Positions 5,992-55,122 of a DNA stretch of 64,000 nt are shown in pieces (positions within the stretch are counted from its first letter, which is position 1; each line of letters starts with the position of its first letter). The translations under genes were made by a program, and so were the position numbers. The notes beneath the pieces were generated by a model. That model did no database searches, had not been told where the DNA came from, and saw only the letters and a program-made list of their open reading frames with translations. This DNA comes from Kutzneria viridogrisea (lineage in GTDB: Bacteria > Actinomycetota > Actinomycetes > Mycobacteriales > Pseudonocardiaceae), in the NCBI GenBank assembly GCA_014138725.1, contig JACJID010000004.1:496001-560000 (forward strand). The letters run 5' to 3'.

Positions 5992-6672
5992 ATGCACGAG
6001 GGACAACGGCGGGTGTTGGTGGTCGAGGACGAGCTGACCATCGCCGAATCAGTGGCCGCCCGGCTGCGCGCCGAGGGCTTCGCCGTGGACCTGGCGCACG
6101 ACGGCCCCGCGGCCGTGGCCGCCGCCGCGCGGCTGAGCCCGGACCTGGTCGTGCTCGACGTGATGCTGCCCGGGTTCGACGGGCTGGAGGTGTGCCGCCG
6201 CATCCAGGCCGAGCGCCCGGTGCCGGTGCTCATGCTGACCGCCCGCGACGACGAGATGGACCTGCTGGTCGGCCTGGCCGTCGGCGCCGACGACTACCTG
6301 ACCAAGCCCTTCTCCATCCGCGAGCTGGCGGCCAGGGTGCACGCGCTGCTGCGCAGGGTGAGCCGGGCGGCGCCGCCCCCGCAACGCATCGTGCTGGGCG
6401 AGCTGGAGATCGACCCGGTGGAGCGGCGGGTGACCCGCGCGGGCACCGAGGCGCACCTGACGCCGACCGAGTTCGAGCTGCTGGTGCACCTGGCGGGCAG
6501 GCCGCGCGCGGTGCAGGCCCGCGAGCGGCTGCTCACCGAGGTGTGGGGCTGGGCCGAGTCCTCCGGCACGCGCACGGTGGACAGCCACATCAAGGCGTTG
6601 CGGCGCAAGCTCGGCGCGGACCTGATCCGCACCGTGCACGGGGTCGGCTACGCCCTGGAGGTGCCCAGGTGA
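5992..6672 (+). CDS. OmpR/PhoB-family response regulator
   Basis: 226 residues. The receiver domain contains the phosphoacceptor Asp56 (LVVLDVMLPG), Thr83 (MLTARDD) and Lys105 (LTKPFS). The C-terminal winged helix includes TPTEFELLVHLAGRP and ends with the GTRTVDSHIKALRRKLG recognition region. The stop overlaps the GTG of the histidine kinase by 3 bases, so the two are co-transcribed and translationally coupled. Target genes may include the membrane protein gene just downstream; this is inferred from position only. Confidence 0.93.
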   Translation: MHEGQRRVLVVEDELTIAESVAARLRAEGFAVDLAHDGPAAVAAAARLSPDLVVLDVMLPGFDGLEVCRRIQAERPVPVLMLTARDDEMDLLVGLAVGADDYLTKPFSIRELAARVHALLRRVSRAAPPPQRIVLGELEIDPVERRVTRAGTEAHLTPTEFELLVHLAGRPRAVQARERLLTEVWGWAESSGTRTVDSHIKALRRKLGADLIRTVHGVGYALEVPR

Positions 6673-7682
6673 CGCGGTTCGCCGACTGGCTGTCCGAGTG
6701 GCTGCCGCGCCCGCTGGACCCGGTGCGCTCGATCAAGATGAAGCTGGGCCTGACGGTGGTCGGCTCCGGCCTGGCGGCGCTGGCGTTCTTCTGGTGGCAG
6801 ATCGGCTGGCTGCCGCCGACCACCTCGGTGATCGCCATCGCCATCGCGCTGGCCACCTCGCAGGTGCTGGCGCACGGCATGACCCGGCCGCTGCGCGCGA
6901 TGACCACGGCCGCCCGCGCGCTGGCGCAGGGCGACTACCGGCGCCGGGTCCGGGCGACCGCACGGGACGAGGTGGGCGTGTTGGCCAAGGCGTTCAACCA
7001 GATGGCCGCCGACCTCGGCGACGCCGACCAGCAGCGGCGGGAGCTGATCGCCAACGTCTCGCACGAGCTGCGCACGCCGATCAGCGCGTTGCGGGCCGTG
7101 CTGGAGAACGTGGTCGACGGGGTGACCCCGGCCGACCCGGCGACCATGCGCACCGCGCTCGCCCAGACCGAACGGCTGGGCAGGCTGGTCACCGAACTGC
7201 TCGACCTGTCCCGGATGGAGGCGGGCGTGCTGCCGCTGCGGCGCGAGGAGTTCGCGCTGCGCCCGCTGCTGGACGAGGTGGTGGCCGAGGCGCGGGTGGC
7301 CGCACCCGCCTGCCGGTTCACCGTGCGGGTGGATCCGCCGCAGGCCACCGTGCACGCCGACCGGGGCAGGCTGCACCAGGTCGTGGTGAACCTGCTGGAC
7401 AACGCCGCCCGGCACGGCCCGGCGGGCGGTGAGGTGCGGGTCCGCGCCGAGCAGGCCGAGGGCGGGCTGTCCATCGAGGTGCTCGACGAGGGGCCGGGCA
7501 TCGCCCCGGCCGACCGGGCCCTGGTGTTCGAGCGGTTCACCCGCGGCGAGCGGGCCCAGGGCGGCGGCACCGGCCTGGGGCTGGCGATCGCGCGCTGGGC
7601 GGTGGACCTGCACGGGGGCACGATCGCCGTGGTGGAGCCCGAGAACTCCGGCTGCCGCATCCGGGTCACGCTCCCGAACTGA
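6669..7682 (+). CDS. Sensor histidine kinase
   Basis: 337 residues. Two membrane segments (about 24-45 and 50-68) with almost no outer loop suggest it senses within the membrane or through a partner. A HAMP-like segment (TRPLRAMTTAARALAQGDYRRRV) follows, then HisKA with His132 in NVSHELRTP and HATPase_c with N box (VVNLLDNAARHG), G1 (DEGPGIA) and G2 (GGTGLGLAIA). The GTG at 6669 overlaps the response regulator stop. It would phosphorylate that regulator. Confidence 0.92.
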   Translation: MTRFADWLSEWLPRPLDPVRSIKMKLGLTVVGSGLAALAFFWWQIGWLPPTTSVIAIAIALATSQVLAHGMTRPLRAMTTAARALAQGDYRRRVRATARDEVGVLAKAFNQMAADLGDADQQRRELIANVSHELRTPISALRAVLENVVDGVTPADPATMRTALAQTERLGRLVTELLDLSRMEAGVLPLRREEFALRPLLDEVVAEARVAAPACRFTVRVDPPQATVHADRGRLHQVVVNLLDNAARHGPAGGEVRVRAEQAEGGLSIEVLDEGPGIAPADRALVFERFTRGERAQGGGTGLGLAIARWAVDLHGGTIAVVEPENSGCRIRVTLPN

Positions 7683-23110: not shown

Positions 23111-23160
23111 GGTCGTGGCAGGCGCCCAGCGTCGCCAACGGCACGCGACACGCAGCCGGG

Positions 23161-23254
23161 CGGGACTCACGCTCCCCAGACCGGGACTCGCGCACCCCAG
23201 AGCGGGACTCGCCGTACCGGAACGTCCGACACGCCGTACCGGGAGCGCCGACAC
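23161..23254 (-). repeat. Repeat array R1: two B units and three A units
   Basis: On the minus strand the order is B, B, A, A, A. The A units read GAGTCCCG on the minus strand (GGGACTC on plus at 23162, 23183 and 23204; exact 21-base steps). The two B units occupy 23211-23232 and 23233-23254 (22 bases each), with minus-strand core GTGTCGGACGTTCCGGTAC in the first. The array lies between the convergent helicase gene and the small hypothetical gene. Confidence 0.8.
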
Positions 23255-23322
23255 GCGCGGGCCCGGCGCGCAGCACGACGTCGCGGGCCCCCGCACGGTG
23301 GGGACCCACGACGTCGGTGCGG

Positions 23323-29680: not shown

Positions 29681-30217
29681 GTGCCGGAGGAGGTGTCGTT
29701 GATCCTGGCCGAGGAGCCGGTGCGCCGCATCCAGTTCAGCGGCCGTCCGGACACGCCGCGGGGTGTCGCAGTGGTCTGCGCCACCAAGGAGGGTCGGCTG
29801 GAGGAGGTCGGCAGGCTGGGCATCCTGGCCCGCTACCACCGCCGCTACGAGGTCGACCTCAGCGAGCACCACACCCGGCTGGCGGCCTTCGTGCCCGCCC
29901 AGCGCGACGGCCGCTTCGACTGCCGTGCCGAGCTGCGGTGGCAGGTCTGCGCCCCGGTGGAGGTGGTCCGCCACCGCGTGAGCGACGGCCGTGCGCTGTG
30001 CCACGACCGCCTGCTGGCCAAGCTGAGCCGGATCACCGAGCAGTTCCCCGCGGCCGAGTCGGCAGCCGCGGAGCGAGAGGTCAACAGCCGACTTGGTGCC
30101 GGTCCACTCGTCATGGACGAAGGCATCACCGTTCACCACTTTGCGGCGCGGCTGACCCCGGACGCCGGCTTGGACCAGCCGGCGTTCGGGGTCACACACC
30201 CCCGCGAGTCCCGCTGA
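29681..30217 (+). CDS. SPFH/band-7-like small protein, partner of NTPase-like protein
   Basis: 178 residues. The pattern YEVDLSEHHTRLAAF...RDGRFDCRAELRWQVCAPVEVVRHRV, followed by helical LLAKLSRITEQFPAAESAAAEREVN and the closing strand MDEGITVHHFAARLTPD, resembles one SPFH (stomatin/band-7) domain. There is no N-terminal membrane anchor, so it would attach through partners. The GTG is at 29681. The last codons (HPRESR-stop) are encoded inside the first unit of repeat array R2, so the present C-terminus was set by the repeat. Function unknown. Confidence 0.55.
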   Translation: MPEEVSLILAEEPVRRIQFSGRPDTPRGVAVVCATKEGRLEEVGRLGILARYHRRYEVDLSEHHTRLAAFVPAQRDGRFDCRAELRWQVCAPVEVVRHRVSDGRALCHDRLLAKLSRITEQFPAAESAAAEREVNSRLGAGPLVMDEGITVHHFAARLTPDAGLDQPAFGVTHPRESR

Positions 30218-30335
30218 CCCGCACACGAGTCCCGCCCAGCGGAGCACGAGTCCCGGGCAGGACCGCGCGTGTCGGACGTTCCGGTGCCGCGTGTCGGCGC
30301 TTGCGGTACCGCGTGTCGGACGTTCCGGTACGCGG
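30206..30335 (+). repeat. Repeat array R2: three A units then three B units
   Basis: A units start at 30206, 30227 and 30248 (GAGTCCCG each; exact 21-base steps). B units start at 30269, 30291 and 30313 (GTGTCGG each; 22-base steps), with core GTGTCGGACGTTCCGGT in the first and third. The A-to-B step is again 21 bases, so both unit types share one register. It lies between convergent genes and overlaps the end of the SPFH-like gene. Confidence 0.85.
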
Positions 30336-38905: not shown

Positions 38906-39040
38906 GAGTCCCGGCCACAGGCGCGCGAGTCCCGGCCGTCACGCACACCGCCGTGCGCCAAAACGGGACTCGTGTGCGCCAGCGCGGGACTCGCGCAACT
39001 CAGAGCGGGACTCGCGCAACTCAGAGCGGGACTCGGCGTG
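38906..39040. repeat. Repeat array R3: two A units then four inverted A units
   Basis: Plus-strand A units (GAGTCCCGG) begin at 38906 and 38927. Minus-strand A units (GGGACTC on plus) begin at 38965, 38986, 39007 and 39028, each exactly 21 bases apart. Two of these have identical 21-base units ending in the CAACTCAGAGC segment. The array is thus a divided inverted repeat and could fold into a large hairpin. It lies between the convergent LacI and LtrA genes. Confidence 0.85.
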
Positions 39041-48112: not shown

Positions 48113-51034
48113 ATGGGGGCACTCGGGGAACTCGTGCGTGCCGGACGGCTGCGCGCGGGGTTGACCCAGCAGGAACTCGCGGACCGGGCCGGGGTCAGCG
48201 TGCGCTCGGTCCGTGCGATCGAGCGCGGGCAGGCCAGCCGCCCGCAACCCGACTCGCTGCACCGGATAGCGGTGGTGCTGGGCGTGCGCCTGCCCGACCA
48301 GCACCGCCCGTCCGGCGACGTGGAAATCCTGGTGCTCGGGCCGCTGGCACTGCGCAGGCACGGGGTGCAACTCCCGCTGGGCCCTCCGGCGCAACGCGCG
48401 TTGCTCGGTCTGCTCGCCTTGCGCCCCAACGAGGTCCTCAGCCGGGACGAGGTCGTGGACGTGCTGTGGGGGCATCGCCCGCCGACCTCCTGGGCCAACC
48501 TGGTGCACACCTACCTCGCCCGCATCCGCAAGCTGATCAGCGAGACCGAGCCGGTGATCCTGTCCCGGGGCACCGGGTACAGCCTGATCGCCGAGGAGCG
48601 GCACCTGGACCTGCTGCGCTTCGAGGTGCTGGCCACCAAGCACACCCGGCTGGGCGAGGCACTGGACTGCTGGCGCGGCCCGGTGCTCGCCGACCTGCCC
48701 GGGGGACTGCGCAACCACCCGGCCGCGATCAGCGCGGGCAACCGGCGGCTCGACCTGGTGCTGGAACACTCCGAGGACCTGATCGGCTCCGGGCGTGGCG
48801 CCGAGGCCGTGCGGTACCTGGAGGCCCTGCTGCCCGAACAGCCGCTGCACGAGGGCGTGCACGCCCGCCTGGTGACGGCGCTGGCCGCCGCGGGCAAGCA
48901 GGCCGCCGCCCACCTGCTCTACACCACGATCCGCGAACGACTCAGCGAAAACCTGGGTGTGGAGCCGGGTTCCGAGCTGCGCAGGGCGCACAGCCGACTG
49001 GTCACCGGCTCCGGGCACCTGCCGCCGGACGAGCTGCCACCGGACGCCGAGCACTTCACCGGACGGGCCGACCCCCTGCACCGGCTGGACATCGGCAGCG
49101 GGCTCACCGTGATCACCGGGCCCGGCGGGGTCGGCAAGAGCGCGCTGGCCGCGCACTGGGGGCACCGCGCGCGGGAGTCCTTCCCCGACGGCACGGTGTA
49201 CCTGGACCTGCACGGGGACGGGCCGCAGTCCCCGCTGCCCGCCGCCGCGGCGCTCACCCAGCTGCTGCGCTCGCTCGGGGTCAGCGGCGAGCGGGTGCCC
49301 GGTTCGCCGACGCGACGGGCCGCCCGGTTCCAGTCCCTTGTGGACGGTCGGCGGCTGCTGCTCGTCCTGGACAACGCGAGCACCTCCGAGCAGATCCGCC
49401 CGCTACTGCCCGCTTCCCCGACCTGCCGGGTGATCGTCACCAGCCGGGAGCGCCTGCCGGAACTGACCGGAGCCGACCGGATCGAGCTGGACCTGTTGTG
49501 CGAGCAGGAATCCGTCCTGCTGCTCGGACGTGACCGCGCGGAGCTGGCGAGCCGCTGCCCCCGGCTCCCCCTCACCCTGCGGCTGGCCGCCGTCACCCCG
49601 CTGCCCGGCTCGCGGCCGCTGTCCACGGCCGCCGTGCTCTCCCGCGCGTACCAGAACCTGACCCCGTTGCCCGCCAGGGCGTTCCGGCTGCTCGGCGCAC
49701 ACCGCGGACCGTCCTTCGACGTGCACGCCATCGCGGCACTGGCCGACACGGACCTGGACTCGGCCCACCAGCTGCTGTCCACATTGGTCAGTTCGCGACT
49801 CGTCGAGCCGTTCGGCGACAACCGTTTCCGCATGCACGACCTGGTGCGCCGCTTCGCGGGCGATCTGTCCGACGGCGAGGCCGGTGCCGCGCGACAGCGG
49901 TTGGCCGCCCACTACCGGCAGACCGCCATCGCGGCCACCGCCGAGTTCCCCTGGCGGGTGACGACCTCCGGCTCGCCTCGGTTCGCGGACAAGGAGGCGG
50001 CGCTGGCCTGGTTGGAGGCAGAGCGGGCCAACCTGGTGCTCACCCCGCAGCCTGACCCCGCCGAGTGGGCCACCGTGCTGTGGCGGTACCTGGCGGGCAG
50101 CGGCCACCACGAGGACGCCCGCGCCCTGTACAGCCAGGCGCTGAGCACCGCGCGCAACACCGGCGACCGGCTCGGCGAGGCCACCGTGCTGGGCAACCTC
50201 GGCCTGGACCACTGGCGGCTGGGCCGCTACCGCGAGGCACTGGAGGTCCTGCAACAGACCCTGGCCGTGTACCGGGAACTCGGCGAGCCCGCGCGGGAAG
50301 CCCGGACGCGGTGGGGCATCGGGCTGCTCATGACGCACCTCGGCCAGTACCGGGAAGCCCTTGCCCAGTCGCGGATCGCCCTGCAACTCGCCCGGCGGAC
50401 AGGCAACAGGCCGGTCGCCGGGCTGGTGCTGTGCGCCATCAGCTCGCTGTGCCGCGCGCTGGACCGCGGCGCGGACTCGCTGAGCGCCGCCCGCGAGGCC
50501 GTCATCGCCGCGCAAGCCGCGGGCGACCGCATCGTCGAGGTGTACGCCCTGCGCTGCCTCGGGCTCGCCCAGTGGCAGTCCGGTCACCGCCAGGCCGCGG
50601 GCTCGGCACTGCGCCAGTCGCTCGCGCTGGCCGTGCGGGCCGGTGACCGGATCGCCGAGGGGTACGTCCGCTGGGCACTCGGGCTCGTACACTGGCTGGC
50701 GGGCCGGTTCACCGATGCGAGAGCGCACGCCCGCCGAGCGCTCGACCTCGCCGAACAGCTTGGCGTGCAAGCGCTTGCCGCCCACAGCCTGTGGGCGCTC
50801 GGCCTGATCGAGACCGATCCCAGCCTGGTCGCCCGCGCCCTGGACCGCGCACGGCGGACCGGGGACCGCGACGTGGAGGGCCACGCCCTGTGGGCCGCGG
50901 GCAAGGTCAGCTGGCGCCTGGGTCGCACCCGCGAGGCCACCGGCCGACTGGGTGAGGCCCTGGCCTTCGCGCGCTCAGCCGGAGCGGTCCGCCTGGAAGG
51001 CCAGGTGCTGGAGGCGCTGGCGGAGATCGGCTAG
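48113..51034 (+). CDS. XRE-SARP/BTAD-NB-ARC-TPR regulator (AfsR-like)
   Basis: 973 residues. Domains in order: XRE helix-turn-helix (1-60, LTQQELADRAGVSVRSVRAIERGQ), OmpR-type winged helix (about 65-155, ALRPNEVLSRDEVVDVLWG), bacterial transcriptional activation domain (about 160-310), NB-ARC with P-loop GPGGVGKSALA (about 345) and LLLVLDNASTSEQIRPLLP, then 8-9 TPR units (from about 650). The ARC part is shortened: after LLLGRDRAELASRCPRLPLTLRLAA the usual winged-helix lead-in is reduced. Such proteins control secondary metabolism or stress genes. The target is unknown; it lies directly after ectD. Confidence 0.85.
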   Translation: MGALGELVRAGRLRAGLTQQELADRAGVSVRSVRAIERGQASRPQPDSLHRIAVVLGVRLPDQHRPSGDVEILVLGPLALRRHGVQLPLGPPAQRALLGLLALRPNEVLSRDEVVDVLWGHRPPTSWANLVHTYLARIRKLISETEPVILSRGTGYSLIAEERHLDLLRFEVLATKHTRLGEALDCWRGPVLADLPGGLRNHPAAISAGNRRLDLVLEHSEDLIGSGRGAEAVRYLEALLPEQPLHEGVHARLVTALAAAGKQAAAHLLYTTIRERLSENLGVEPGSELRRAHSRLVTGSGHLPPDELPPDAEHFTGRADPLHRLDIGSGLTVITGPGGVGKSALAAHWGHRARESFPDGTVYLDLHGDGPQSPLPAAAALTQLLRSLGVSGERVPGSPTRRAARFQSLVDGRRLLLVLDNASTSEQIRPLLPASPTCRVIVTSRERLPELTGADRIELDLLCEQESVLLLGRDRAELASRCPRLPLTLRLAAVTPLPGSRPLSTAAVLSRAYQNLTPLPARAFRLLGAHRGPSFDVHAIAALADTDLDSAHQLLSTLVSSRLVEPFGDNRFRMHDLVRRFAGDLSDGEAGAARQRLAAHYRQTAIAATAEFPWRVTTSGSPRFADKEAALAWLEAERANLVLTPQPDPAEWATVLWRYLAGSGHHEDARALYSQALSTARNTGDRLGEATVLGNLGLDHWRLGRYREALEVLQQTLAVYRELGEPAREARTRWGIGLLMTHLGQYREALAQSRIALQLARRTGNRPVAGLVLCAISSLCRALDRGADSLSAAREAVIAAQAAGDRIVEVYALRCLGLAQWQSGHRQAAGSALRQSLALAVRAGDRIAEGYVRWALGLVHWLAGRFTDARAHARRALDLAEQLGVQALAAHSLWALGLIETDPSLVARALDRARRTGDRDVEGHALWAAGKVSWRLGRTREATGRLGEALAFARSAGAVRLEGQVLEALAEIG

Positions 51035-51084
51035 GGGCGCTGCGTGGTGCTGCGCGGCGCAGCGCGTGGTGGGGGTTGGGGGGC

Positions 51085-51234
51085 GTGTCGGCGGTTGGCG
51101 TGCGGTGTGTCGGCGGTTCGAGGGTGGTGTGTTTGCGGTTGGTGTGCGGCGTGTCCCGGTCACCGGTTGGCGAGTCCCGGTCTCGGGAGGGCGAGTCCCG
51201 GGCTGGGGAGGACGAGTCCCGGTGTGGGGCGTGC
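51085..51234 (+). repeat. Repeat array R4a: B-like units followed by A units
   Basis: Units begin at 51085, 51107 and 51129 (B-like, GTGTCGGCGGTTGG type, 22-base steps), at 51151 (transitional GTGTCCCGG), and at 51172, 51193 and 51214 (A type, GAGTCCCGG, 21-base steps). The order is B then A on the plus strand. It begins 50 bases after the stop of the large regulator gene. Confidence 0.85.
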
Positions 51235-51306
51235 GGGGTGCTGCCGGGTTGGTGACGCGGGTTGGTTTGGTGCGGGTCCCTCGCGGCGGCCTGTGATCGG
51301 GGTTTC

Positions 51307-51327
51307 CGGGGCATGGGGGATGCCCCG
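51307..51327. repeat. Hairpin inside the repeat region
   Basis: CGGGGCAT and ATGCCCCG, 8-base arms with a five-G loop. It stands in the non-repetitive 175-base stretch (51235-51408) that separates arrays R4a and R4b. A second inverted repeat, ACCAACCC/GGGTTGGT with a one-base centre, is at 51367-51383. No coding function is seen in this stretch. Confidence 0.6.
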
Positions 51328-51408
51328 ATTCGCCGACGAGCGTAAGGCCGCCGCTACCCACACAAAACCAACCCCGGGTTGGTGGGCGTTGTGCGGGGGT
51401 TGCGGTGC

Positions 51409-51840
51409 GTGTCGGACGTTGCGGTACCGCGTGTTCGGCGTTCGGGTGCGGTGTGTTGGCGGTTGGGGTGCGGTGTGTCGGACGTTGGGGTGTCGCGTGT
51501 TCGGTGTTCTGGGGTGGTGTGTCGGACGTTGCGGTGCGGCGTGTTCGGCCTTCCGGTGCGGTGTGTCGGACGTTGCGGGATGGCGTGTCGGCGTGTCCGG
51601 GGCAGCGTGTTCGGCGTTCCGGTGCGGCGTGTTGGCGGTTGGGGTGCGGCATGTCCCGCTGACCGGAACGCGAGTCCGGGCTGAGGGGCGCGAGCCTCGG
51701 TCTGGGGTAGGTGAGTCCCGGTCTCTGGTGGGTGAGTCCCGCTGCCTGGAGGGCGAGTCCCGTTGTGGGGAGCGTGAGTCCCGCTCTGAGGAGGGCGAGT
51801 CCCGGGCTGGGGTGGGTGGGTCTCGCAGCCTGGCCGGGGT
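51409..51840 (+). repeat. Repeat array R4b: eleven 22-bp B units then nine 20-22-bp A units
   Basis: B units start every 22 bases from 51409 to 51629 (11 units, all GTGT then C/T-GG). Variants alternate: GTGTCGGACGTTGCGG, GTGTTCGGCGTTCCGG and GTGTTGGCGGTTGGGG. From 51651 the units become A type (ATGTCCCG, GAGTCCGG, GAGCCTCGG, then GAGTCCCG) at 51672, 51692, 51713, 51734, 51755, 51776, 51797 and 51818, in 20-21-base steps. The strand is strongly G+T rich. It ends about 80 bases before the HNH gene. Confidence 0.9.
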
Positions 51841-51922
51841 TGGGCTTTGGGCGTGGTCACCCACATGGGTAGCCATTGGTGTGCAACGGTTTTGGGGTGG
51901 ATTGGGGAGTAGAATTGTTGGT

Positions 51923-53060
51923 ATGACAGCATTCGTGGAGACTCGGCCTGCCGCAGGGTTGTGGCGGTTGGGGGACGCGGAGCTGTTGGGTGAGTTGCAG
52001 GACGCGGAAGTGGTTCTGCGGCAAGCGTATGCGCGGGTGTTGGGGTTGGTCGCGGAGGCGGGTGCGCGGGGTGTGGCGGAGCGGGTGGGGTATCCGAGCC
52101 TGGCAGAGTTGCTGCGTGGTGTGCTCTGCGTGAGCAAGAAGGAAGCCAGGCAGCGGATCGCGCACGCGGGGGTTCCGGTGGGGGTGGCGTTGGAACCGGA
52201 GCAGTTGTCGGTGATCAACCGGGTGCTGAGAGAGCTACCGCCACACATCGGTACAACCGACCGGGAGCAGGCTGTCGAGGTCCTGGCAGCGGCGGCCCAG
52301 TCGCTGGATGCCTCCAACCTGGTGCCGCTGGGCCGGGAGATCGTCAACCGGCTGGACCCCGACGGGGCGCTACCCAGCGAGGACGAACTCGCCCATCCGC
52401 GACGTGAGTTCCGGTACGACACACGGCGGGACGGGTCAGTGCGGTTCCAGGGGTGCCTGGACGCGGAGACCGGCGCCCTGCTGGGGGCAGTCCTCAGCCC
52501 GCTGGCGAAACCACACGACGCCCACGACACACGAACCCTGCCCGAACGGCAAGGGGACGCGTTCGCGGAACTACTGGAGACCAGCACCACGCCGACGGAG
52601 GGGGGGGGAACGCCCCCACATCGCAGTGACCATCGACTGGCACACGCTCACAACCGGCACAGGAACCACCGAACTCGCCCCGTCAGCGATCCGCCGACTC
52701 GCCTGCGACGCGAAAGTGCTCCCAGTGGTACTGGGCAGCAACTCCGAACCGCTCGACATCGGGCGGATCAGCTACACCGTGCCGCCCCACCTCCGACGAG
52801 CACTGATCGTCAGGGACCAGCACTGCGCCTTCCCTGGATGCAGGCGAAGGCCAAGCAGCTGCCACGCGCACCACGTGATCCACTGGGCGAACGGAGGGGA
52901 CACCGCACTGTCCAACCTGGTGCTGCTGTGCGGAATGCACCACAGGTTGATCCACCACAGCGGCTGGACAGTGCGGATCACCAACGGGCGGCCGGAATTC
53001 ACGCCGCCGAGCTTCGTCAGGCGAAGATCACCCGCACCAGGGAGTACTGCTGCAGGGTGA
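51923..53060 (+). pseudogene. DUF222/13E12-type HNH endonuclease, frameshifted at a nine-G run
   Basis: The first frame (ATG 51923) encodes the DUF222 part, from MTAFVETRPAAGLWRLGDAE to about residue 226. At a run of nine G (52600-52608) the frame is lost. The other frame continues ERPHIAVTIDWHTLTTGTG and then the HNH region CAFPGCRRRPSSCHAHHVIHW...LLCGMHHRLIHH, ending at 53060. With eight G the protein would be one chain of about 378 residues. So this is a frameshifted gene, a phase-variable gene, or a sequencing error. The end overlaps the convergent glycosidase-like gene by 44 bases. A TAGAAT element 7 bases before the ATG suggests a leaderless transcript. Confidence 0.85.
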
Positions 53061-55122
53061 GGTCGAAGGTCGCGGCCGAACCGCTGGTCGTCCACGGCAC
53101 GGGCTGCGGGGCGGGGGTGGGGTTGTCGGGCGAGCTGACGGTCACGGTGCCGATCTGCTTGCCGGTGGGCAGGTCGACGCGCACGGTGCAGGTGGTGGGC
53201 GCGGCCTTGAACTCGGTGGGCTTGTCGCCGAACTGGGTGAAGTTGACCAGTTGCAGGACGAGGTCGGAGCCGAGGCGGTTGACCTCGAGGTGGATGCGGG
53301 GGTCACCGGCGGCGAGGCCGACGGTGGGCGGGGCGGCGCGCAGGACGGGGCCGAGCAGGAGGTCGGCGCTGGCCTGGTCGGTCTTGGTGAGGTAGTTCAG
53401 GCCGAGCAGGTCCTTGTGGTACCAGCAGGTTCCGTTCTGCTTGCTGGCGGGCAGGGGGTCGGCGCGGCGCAGGCCGAGCACGTCGGACAGGGCGAACTCG
53501 GTGCGGGTGGTGCCGAACTGGTCGAGGCCGGTGGGGTTGGGGCCGGTGACGACGAGGGTGCCGCCGCCCGCGACGAAGCCGCGCAGCACGGCGGCCTCCT
53601 CATCGGACACGGCCTGGAGGTTGGGCAGCAGCAGGGCCTTGAGGCCGACGAGGTCGGCGGGGGCGAGGCCGGGGCTGGTGACGGTGCGGAAGGGCACATG
53701 GGCGTACACGAGGGCCTTGACGACACCGCGGAAGTCGCCGAGCCAGGAGTGGTGGTCGGCGCCCTCCTCGCGGCTGCCGGTGGCCCACCAGTCCTTGACA
53801 CCCTTGGGGGCGACGGTGTTGAGGTACATGCCGGTGCCCGCGCCGGGGTCGACGTAGTCGCGGGAGGCACTGGAGTGGTAGACGCCGACCTCGGCGGTGT
53901 TCACGCTGTCGTACAGGGCGTTCTGGTTGGCCGCGATGAAGCCGTACATGCGGGTGCGCATGGCGAGGTCGGTGCTGTCGGACTTGTACGGGCTTTTGAC
54001 CTCGAACGGGTTGCAGCCCGCGGCGAGCAGTTCGGCCATGACCAGGGAGGCGTCGTCGGCCTTCCACCCGTAGCTGAAGGCCCAGGCGGGTTTGGCCCCG
54101 CTGGCGGCACGGGCGTACTTGTACATGGAGATCAGGCAGGTCCAGTCGGTGGCGGTGGCGTGCCGCATCCCGTCGTAGTTGCCGAGGATGTCGACCTCCC
54201 ACACGTGGCTGACGCCCGGGGAGGTGCGCAGGTAGGCGCCGTCGAGGCCGACGAGGGTGCCGTACTGGTAGTCCATGCTGACGGTCTCGACGAAGGTCAC
54301 CAGCTGGGGGTTCACCGACTGACCGGCGGCGGCGATGTCGCGCTGCCAGCCGAGCAGGGTGTGGTGCCGCCACTCCACGTACCGGCGGAACACGGGGCTG
54401 GTGAAGTCGGGCTTGGCGGGCAGGGCGAGCCCGGTGTCGGCGCGGAAGGCCGAGGCGGCCCAGGAGGATGCGTCACACCAGCTGAGGGCGCCGTCGAAGT
54501 AGATGGGCACATCGGGCCAGATGGCGTCGACCCCGGTGCCGGCCAGTTGCCTGATGCGGGCGAGGTAGAAGTCGCGGTAGGGCGAGTTGGGGCTGACCCA
54601 GCAGCTCTCGTCGTCGGGGTCGACCCACACGACAAGATCCCCGTAGAACACGTTGGGCTTGCCCTCGGGTGAACGCTGCACCCAGTCCTTGCCCGGGCCG
54701 TTCTTGTAGAACGACTGCCCGATGCGGCCACCGATGCTGATGACCTCCAGCGAGGGGTAGTACATGACCACCCGCATGCCCGCGGCGTGCGCGAGCTCGC
54801 AGAACTGCCTGACCTTGCCCATGTGCTCGGTGAACTGCTGGTCGGTGATCCAGTTGGACAGGATGGTGTCCAGCTCGATCACGCTGACGTTCTGCTTGCG
54901 CAGGGCGTCGATCTTCGGCTTCATGTCGCGGACCGGGTCGGCGTCCTCGTCGAAGGTGGTGTCGGCGATACGCGCGAACCGGCTCCACTCGGGGAAGACC
55001 TCGGTCAGCCGTGCCGTGCCGCCGTACGCGGGCAGGAACTGGGCGGCGACCGCCACCCCGCCCACGGCCAGACCGGCCCTGAGCAGTCCGCGTCTGCTGA
55101 TCCGTGCAGGTGTTCGAGCCAC
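53017..55122 (-). CDS. Tat-exported glycoside hydrolase-like protein
   Basis: 701 residues. A twin-arginine signal (RISRRGLLRAGLAVGGVAVAA) directs export. The body looks like a GH42/GH29-type barrel: FARIADTTFDEDAD, MRVVMYYPSLEVISIGG, GDLVVWVDPDDESCWVSPNSPYRDFYLARIRQL, GVDAIWPDVPIYFDG. A later Rossmann-like part (LVGLKALLLPNLQAVSDEEAAVLRGFVAGGGTLVVTGPN) matches a beta-galactosidase trimerisation domain, and the end is a beta-sandwich. A polysaccharide-degrading role outside the cell is likely, substrate unknown. GTG 55122 follows GGGGGATC. A LacI-type operator lies 25 bases upstream. Confidence 0.8.
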   Translation of the reverse strand: MARTPARISRRGLLRAGLAVGGVAVAAQFLPAYGGTARLTEVFPEWSRFARIADTTFDEDADPVRDMKPKIDALRKQNVSVIELDTILSNWITDQQFTEHMGKVRQFCELAHAAGMRVVMYYPSLEVISIGGRIGQSFYKNGPGKDWVQRSPEGKPNVFYGDLVVWVDPDDESCWVSPNSPYRDFYLARIRQLAGTGVDAIWPDVPIYFDGALSWCDASSWAASAFRADTGLALPAKPDFTSPVFRRYVEWRHHTLLGWQRDIAAAGQSVNPQLVTFVETVSMDYQYGTLVGLDGAYLRTSPGVSHVWEVDILGNYDGMRHATATDWTCLISMYKYARAASGAKPAWAFSYGWKADDASLVMAELLAAGCNPFEVKSPYKSDSTDLAMRTRMYGFIAANQNALYDSVNTAEVGVYHSSASRDYVDPGAGTGMYLNTVAPKGVKDWWATGSREEGADHHSWLGDFRGVVKALVYAHVPFRTVTSPGLAPADLVGLKALLLPNLQAVSDEEAAVLRGFVAGGGTLVVTGPNPTGLDQFGTTRTEFALSDVLGLRRADPLPASKQNGTCWYHKDLLGLNYLTKTDQASADLLLGPVLRAAPPTVGLAAGDPRIHLEVNRLGSDLVLQLVNFTQFGDKPTEFKAAPTTCTVRVDLPTGKQIGTVTVSSPDNPTPAPQPVPWTTSGSAATFDLTLQQYSLVRVIFA

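Follow-up and report, generated by a model that had tools for sequence, protein, structure and literature searches.

A tandem array of 21/22-bp units in Kutzneria viridogrisea forms the left part of a multicopy DUF222-HNH element

What is the long tandem array that occupies positions 51085 to 51840 of the 64,000-nucleotide stretch of Kutzneria viridogrisea DNA analyzed here (the window), and how did it come to lie there? Reading the plus strand unit by unit gave 27 units in two arrays. Array 1 (R4a, 51085 to 51234) holds seven units of 21 or 22 bp: three B-like units starting at 51085, 51107, and 51129, one transitional unit (GTGTCCCG) starting at 51151, and three A units starting at 51172, 51193, and 51214. 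Array 2 (R4b, 51409 to 51838) holds 20 units, with 11 B starts at steps of exactly 22 bases from 51409 to 51629, followed by nine A-type starts at steps of 20 to 22 bases (51651, 51672, 51692, 51713, 51734, 51755, 51776, 51797, and 51818). The initial annotation had counted about 27 units of these types at these places; the count is exactly 27 and lies far beyond chance. For the A motif GAGTCCCG, the window has 20 occurrences where 5.71 would be expected, and none of 100 shuffles reached 20. B pairs at 22-bp spacing, with at most one mismatch, occur 13 times against 0.00 expected, and 14 A units are followed by a partner at 20 to 22 bases, a number that was 0 in 100 first-order Markov resamplings.

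All units of the two arrays have one orientation and are not palindromic. They run head to tail without spacers, i.e., there is no alternation of spacer and repeat, and the array was rightly said not to be a CRISPR. The strong G+T richness of the strand was likewise borne out, with a (G-C)/(G+C) skew of 0.37 to 0.39 and a (T-A)/(T+A) skew of 0.62. Neither array folded clearly better than shuffled sequences (z of −0.39 on the plus strand and +0.92 on the minus strand for array 1; −0.40 and +1.04 for array 2, folded in two parts).

Comparison of copies showed that arrays 1 and 2 are the left part of a ~2-kb repeated element with 15 copies in the genome (10.25 Mb in 11 contigs). Its order is B/A units, a 116-bp hairpin, B/A units, a leader, and a DUF222-HNH gene, the second unit block being usual rather than universal. 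The initial interpretation is partly supported; it missed both the place of the array at the front of a multicopy DUF222-HNH element and the hairpin at 51259 to 51375. In the window, tblastn located the gene on the plus strand in two parts, the first (DUF222) at 51923 to 52585 and the second (the end of DUF222 plus HNH) at 52611 to 53018 in another frame; this copy is frameshifted. At an identity of at least 81%, the genome holds 15 copies, of which 12 are open over their full length and 3, including that of the window, are broken; more diverged copies exist besides. The gene is under purifying selection, with a median dN/dS of 0.186 over the 66 pairs formed by the 12 open copies. An intact copy (P0001) matched PF02720 (DUF222; E value, 1.6e-31) and then PF01844 (HNH; E value, 9.8e-5) and nothing else in Pfam; no HUH (Y1) enzyme was detected, and no RuvC-like domain at an E value of 0.01. 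A structure search with the predicted model, which is weak (pLDDT, 68.8), gave no match at an E value of 0.001, and its best matches were HNH enzymes.

Between the two arrays lies an imperfect hairpin of ~116 bp with 19-bp outer arms (51259 to 51375, plus strand), recognized as an inverted repeat and by folding. Its RNA fold was far better than those of shuffled sequences (z of −5.68 on the plus strand and −5.94 on the minus strand). A left-arm pattern allowing up to two mismatches matched at 16 places in the genome. All of them lie next to one of the 15 gene copies, with two sites in a single element, and there was no match in this genome away from a DUF222-HNH gene. In a joint alignment of 20 hairpins, compensatory changes were found in 10 of 35 predicted pairs, mainly from a single split between two families. 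The leader that follows array 2 (51839 to 51922, plus strand) carries GGTCACCCACATGGGTAG...AGTAGAATTGTTGGT and is alike in the other copies compared.

The genome also contains a more distant DUF222-HNH family (ten rows, of which eight copies were read), 26 to 30% identical to P0001. Four of its copies (L071, L072, L077, and L078) have a hairpin directly upstream, with nearly the same core and a different outer stem. Two others (L073 and L079) appear to begin inside the hairpin, and two (L074 and L076) retain only decayed traces of it. That so distant a family has a near-identical core looks as if the hairpin were common to both families within this host. No GAGTYCCG unit was found within 700 bp to the left of the gene in the eight copies; in L077, a short B array abuts the hairpin on the left. 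Two copies of intermediate identity (L067 and L068) showed neither array nor hairpin by eye. In other genomes, a strongly folding leader was found in 6 of 6 copies tested in G014, 4 of 5 in G013, and 2 of 6 in G035, where control stretches were mostly unstructured and a few, in G035 and G013, folded well; no such leader was seen in G006, G002, G027, or G063. The hairpin is therefore limited to certain lineages, and the idea of a universal partner of the gene was ruled out.

IscB, with its omega RNA (HEARO), is an HNH nuclease gene with a structured leader. The gene described here resembles it in having a structured leader, and the best PDB sequence match of the HNH domain is IscB (E value, 2.6e-4), the resemblance to McrA being weaker. 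It differs from IscB in lacking a RuvC-like Pfam match at an E value of 0.01 and from omega RNA in having no Rfam match at the gathering score, in a search that covered window positions 50900 to 53100 and seven other loci. Matches of the hairpin to ilvB-OMG and mir-138 were below threshold and were dismissed.

The element has a sharp right end at 53019 to 53027 (plus strand), within the last codons of its gene, so that the stop codon of the gene is flanking DNA. The ten copies compared share nothing beyond this point and diverge immediately past it, as do the copies in G014. Read on the minus strand, the right end in the window gives the neighboring gene its last codons and stop, and among called genes, the right-hand minus-strand gene runs to a stop inside the element in the window, L039, and L040. 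The right neighbor in the window ends differently from its 71% identical relative in G012, which is consistent with the element having replaced its last codons. On the other side, 9 of the 10 copies examined have a left neighbor gene whose 3' end faces the element, and the element usually begins just past the stop codon of a codirectional gene. Neither an empty site nor a target duplication was found at the one site tried, for which 59 other genomes gave one close relative of the right-hand gene in the window, in G012 and with a different neighbor; the argument for movement is thus made from copy number and boundaries.

The unit blocks are the most variable part of the element. In all 15 copies of the main family, reading by eye placed units to the left of the hairpin and on the strand of the gene. 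By the same reading, array 2 is absent from 3 of the 15 (L051, L057, and L065) and consists of A-type units only in L055 and L062, and B units were not clearly seen in array 1 of L037. Array length and A/B makeup differ freely between copies, which argues against a strongly constrained function. In L051, a block of four A units (84 bp) to the left of the HNH gene (G000:C1, near 400 kb) recurs four and a half times with hardly a change, as a tandem duplication of higher order. The arrays of L057 and L047 match at 98.5% over the 133 bp that lead to the hairpin, and the match ends at a unit. Array 1 is otherwise mostly unshared between copies (3 pairs at ≥88% over ≥90 bp), and local growth could therefore explain much of it.

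The initial annotation had also proposed that a 21-base period sets every unit on the same face of the helix. This is not supported: a 22-base step at 10.5 bases per turn drifts by ~34 degrees per unit, so that 11 units go once around the helix. The regular 21/22-bp spacing and the common GNGTC core would fit a phased array of binding sites for a DNA-binding protein. However, the step is 21 for A units and 22 for B units here and 22 in G009 and G014, and copy number is unconstrained. Given the drift of 22-bp steps and the free number of units, we reject regular phasing as the point of the array, and we regard a phased binding array as very improbable.

Long arrays also occur away from the gene. 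Fifteen stretches were fetched around large arrays of the genome. Nine of them, like the window, contain two co-oriented B/A arrays with a DUF222-HNH open reading frame (ORF) directly downstream in every case; both gene parts, searched separately, matched their counterparts in the window at 80 to 94% identity. The remaining six stretches (L036, L042 to L045, and L048) contain arrays and no DUF222-HNH copy. L045 (G000:C3:416000-431000) is the clearest example of a solitary long array; in it, some 15 units, B and then A, lie on the minus strand at 7190 to 7530, directly after a stop codon. This array is G/T-rich (skews of 0.29 and 0.78), and a second, shorter array at 6190 to 6450 on the plus strand has the opposite orientation. 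No HNH gene, hairpin, or leader remnant was found near the two arrays, and long arrays evidently do not need the element. In L048 (G000:C4, ~907.6 and 910.6 kb), two matching B-type arrays lie 3 kb apart, as in a local duplication.

Minisatellites and the MIRU-VNTR loci of actinobacteria are intergenic tandem units of variable number. The array might be such a minisatellite without function, one that expands by slippage where gene ends tolerate it and that came to precede the HNH gene by historical accident. The great variation in unit number and A/B makeup, the absence of array 2 from three copies, the 84-bp higher-order duplication, and the array of L045 would all fit. This reading is nevertheless unlikely in our judgment, as a single orientation in all 15 copies and a parallel association in G014 (described below) show more order than an accident predicts. 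The array also differs from these loci in having two related unit types, usually B and then A, and in being attached to a repeated gene-bearing element.

Units of both types extend well beyond the window, so that the case named in the initial annotation as speaking against a conserved function, an array present nowhere else, does not apply. The exact A pair (GAGTCCCG-N13-GAGTCCCG) occurs 1,040 times in the genome (reversed control, 0), and a 22-bp pattern for pairs of B units gave 107 matches, also with a control of 0. The family has thus grown to more than 1,000 exact A pairs in this one species. The pair is present in 11 of 99 relatives, and the searched genomes of its own genus, six in number, have between 0 and 7 each. 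A relaxed A pair (Y allowed; spacing, 11 to 16) matched in 43 of 119 relatives, mostly one to three times; the reversed control also gave scattered matches, once as many as seven. Higher counts, which fall in four genera besides that of the window, were obtained for G014 (247), G020 (65), G009 (27), G054 (22), G006 (13), G058 (10), and G049 (8); the 9 matches in G001 are mostly a different 7-bp repeat. The supposed kinship of the A and B types is supported. The hybrid unit GTGTCCCG, or a close form of it, stands at the B-to-A junction in most element copies. In G009 and G054, a 22-bp unit such as GAGTCCCGCGTTCCGGTGCCGC combines the head of an A unit with a B-like body; the unit of G014 is 22 bp long as well.

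The scattered units gather at gene ends. Forty evenly spaced 20-kb stretches (800 kb) were surveyed with a simple gene caller, one 15-kb gap being counted as convergent. Per kilobase of intergenic DNA, A units numbered 0.85 where the flanking genes converge, 0.29 where they run in tandem, and 0.024 where they diverge; 15 A units fell inside called genes over 632 kb. Of 64 convergent regions, 6 held an array site (a chain of units), as did 3 of 200 tandem regions, with 4 sites among them, and none of 96 divergent ones. Convergent regions differed from divergent regions (P = 0.0035) and, with the 4 tandem sites counted, from tandem regions (P = 0.015). In stretches of relatives, most of them chosen for holding arrays, convergent and tandem sites numbered 5 and 2 in G006, 4 and 2 in G009, and 3 and 4 in G020, with none divergent. 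Scattered units are on average C-richer and element arrays G/T-rich, although L045 shows that this split is not absolute.

Three further, smaller arrays of A/B units were read in the window itself: three A and two B units at 23161 to 23256 (minus strand), three A and three B units at 30206 to 30331 (plus strand), and two A units on the plus strand followed by four on the minus strand at 38906 to 39034. All are less G+T skewed than arrays 1 and 2. The third lies between two convergent genes; its opposed blocks take up the gap and form a strong hairpin when either strand is folded (z of −3.95 and −3.22). The other two folded no better than shuffles (23155 to 23256; z of +1.91 and +1.69) or not clearly better (30200 to 30335; z of −1.35 and −0.53).

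Such placement would be expected if the units were functional elements of the host at gene 3' ends, e.g., bidirectional transcription terminators or barriers between convergent genes, with the HNH element merely landing beside them. The bias toward convergent regions, the strong fold of the opposed array, and the state of G006, where all seven array sites read hold units in both orientations and several begin right after a stop codon, favor this explanation. However, single-orientation arrays fold not clearly better than shuffles, unit orientation is inconsistent relative to the neighboring gene, and avoidance of promoters alone would yield the same placement. We regard a host function as possible but somewhat unlikely; it is compatible with the capture of units by the element that we prefer (see below), and the weights given to the alternatives in this study are not mutually exclusive. 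In the same-genus genome G006, the opposed A units at gene ends (L354 to L359) occupy intergenic gaps of 85 to 435 bp and in one case surround a perfect palindrome, GTCGAGTTCCGGAACTCGAC.

The relation between the units and the nuclease could be followed into other genomes. Relatives of the nuclease are encoded in actinobacterial records; the gene matched in 41 of 59 relatives (own genome not counted), and DUF222-HNH genes are multicopy in many of the genomes searched. In G014, which belongs to a different genus, the protein is 38 to 40% identical; seemingly 5'-truncated copies there sit at contig ends and were ruled out as such. Units lie within 300 bp of the ORF start at 7 of 18 left ends read in G014, all on the strand of the gene, and at 1 of 20 right ends read. 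Among gene 3' ends of that genome, 7 of 326 have units within 120 bp (versus 7 of 18 left ends; Fisher P = 8e-7). Contact was scant elsewhere: a unit within 700 bp to the left of the gene was found for 0 of 8 copies read in G009, 0 of 1 in G020, 1 of 7 in G054 (at −105; some loci there are cut by contig ends), and 1 of 8 in G006 (a single unit at −492 on the other strand). G008, G012, G035, and G063 have at least 31 to 33 gene matches each, yet 0 or 1 unit pairs. Gene and unit counts are thus uncoupled across genomes, and a general rule by which nuclease number drives array number was ruled out.

These counts bear on the idea of a pair like REP/RAYT, in which the scattered arrays would be nonautonomous passengers spread by the DUF222-HNH protein, which would recognize either the hairpin or the 21/22-bp units. 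The units adjoin the gene in all 15 main-family copies and in 7 of the 18 G014 copies read, and further arrays are scattered without a gene, as this idea predicts. Against it stand the four gene-rich genomes almost without arrays, the copies of other array-bearing genomes that hardly touch arrays, and the left-arm pattern of the hairpin, which never occurs away from the gene here. We consider such a pair rather improbable. The gene-rich genomes and the scant contact in G009, G020, G054, and G006 instead lead us to prefer capture of gene-end units over their dispersal by the nuclease.

We therefore consider it reasonably probable that a repeat family of gene ends was captured and amplified by a DUF222-HNH mobile element and that the array is the left part of this compact, multicopy element with its single gene. 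A/B units without the gene occur mostly at gene 3' ends, here and in other genera, and these would constitute the preexisting family from which units were captured. The element, as copy number and boundaries suggest, would move and insert at gene 3' ends, with its right terminus set precisely and its left terminus loosely. A block of preexisting units would have been captured at the left end, independently in G014, and then carried and amplified by tandem duplication while the element was copied. The HNH protein may nick DNA, with the hairpin as its putative recognition structure. The long array would accordingly be a passenger rather than a purpose-built protein-binding array. In this species the anatomy of the whole family can be read, from the common right end inside the ORF and the hairpin confined to the gene to the repeat block at the left, and an anonymous repeat becomes a testable mobile-element model.

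REPs flank the RAYT (TnpA-REP) gene, and the present units resemble those of such REPtrons in being dispersed in extragenic DNA beyond the gene. Unlike in REP/RAYT systems, the protein here is DUF222-HNH and not an HUH enzyme, arrays 1 and 2 are not palindromic (some scattered sites do have opposed units), and gene and unit counts are uncoupled across genomes. REPs have been described as extragenic repeats of high copy number that are linked to a nuclease-type gene and are suspected nonautonomous mobile units (PMC8266576). A bolder and, we think, improbable proposal is that the element represents a new class of selfish DNA in bacteria, comparable to REP/RAYT but built on an HNH nuclease. A DUF222-HNH nuclease would mobilize itself through a hairpin in cis (DNA or RNA), insert at gene 3' ends with the end of its own ORF as right terminus, and seed tandem 21/22-bp units that disperse. 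Among the matches listed in a search of open-licence papers, there was no hairpin-plus-array element of this kind and no such family of gene-end units.

A closer parallel in gene content is the REP13E12 (13E12) family of Mycobacterium tuberculosis, likewise a multicopy DUF222-HNH family in an actinobacterium. REP13E12/HNH endonuclease/DUF222 is named among repetitive elements in a reference-free scan (PMC10589994), and a 2026 preprint describes REP13E12 regions as gene-conversion hotspots said to lack a defined biological function (PMC13061034). The present element differs in its long hairpin and the 21/22-bp arrays before the gene, with ends mapped over 15 copies; neither feature appears in the portions of the M. 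tuberculosis descriptions available, with which the comparison was made by description. Tandem repeats of another kind lie downstream of the gene in G002, where L120 carries 15-bp units, ~24 copies each, at 1433 to 1788 and 2588 to 2961 relative to the HNH start.
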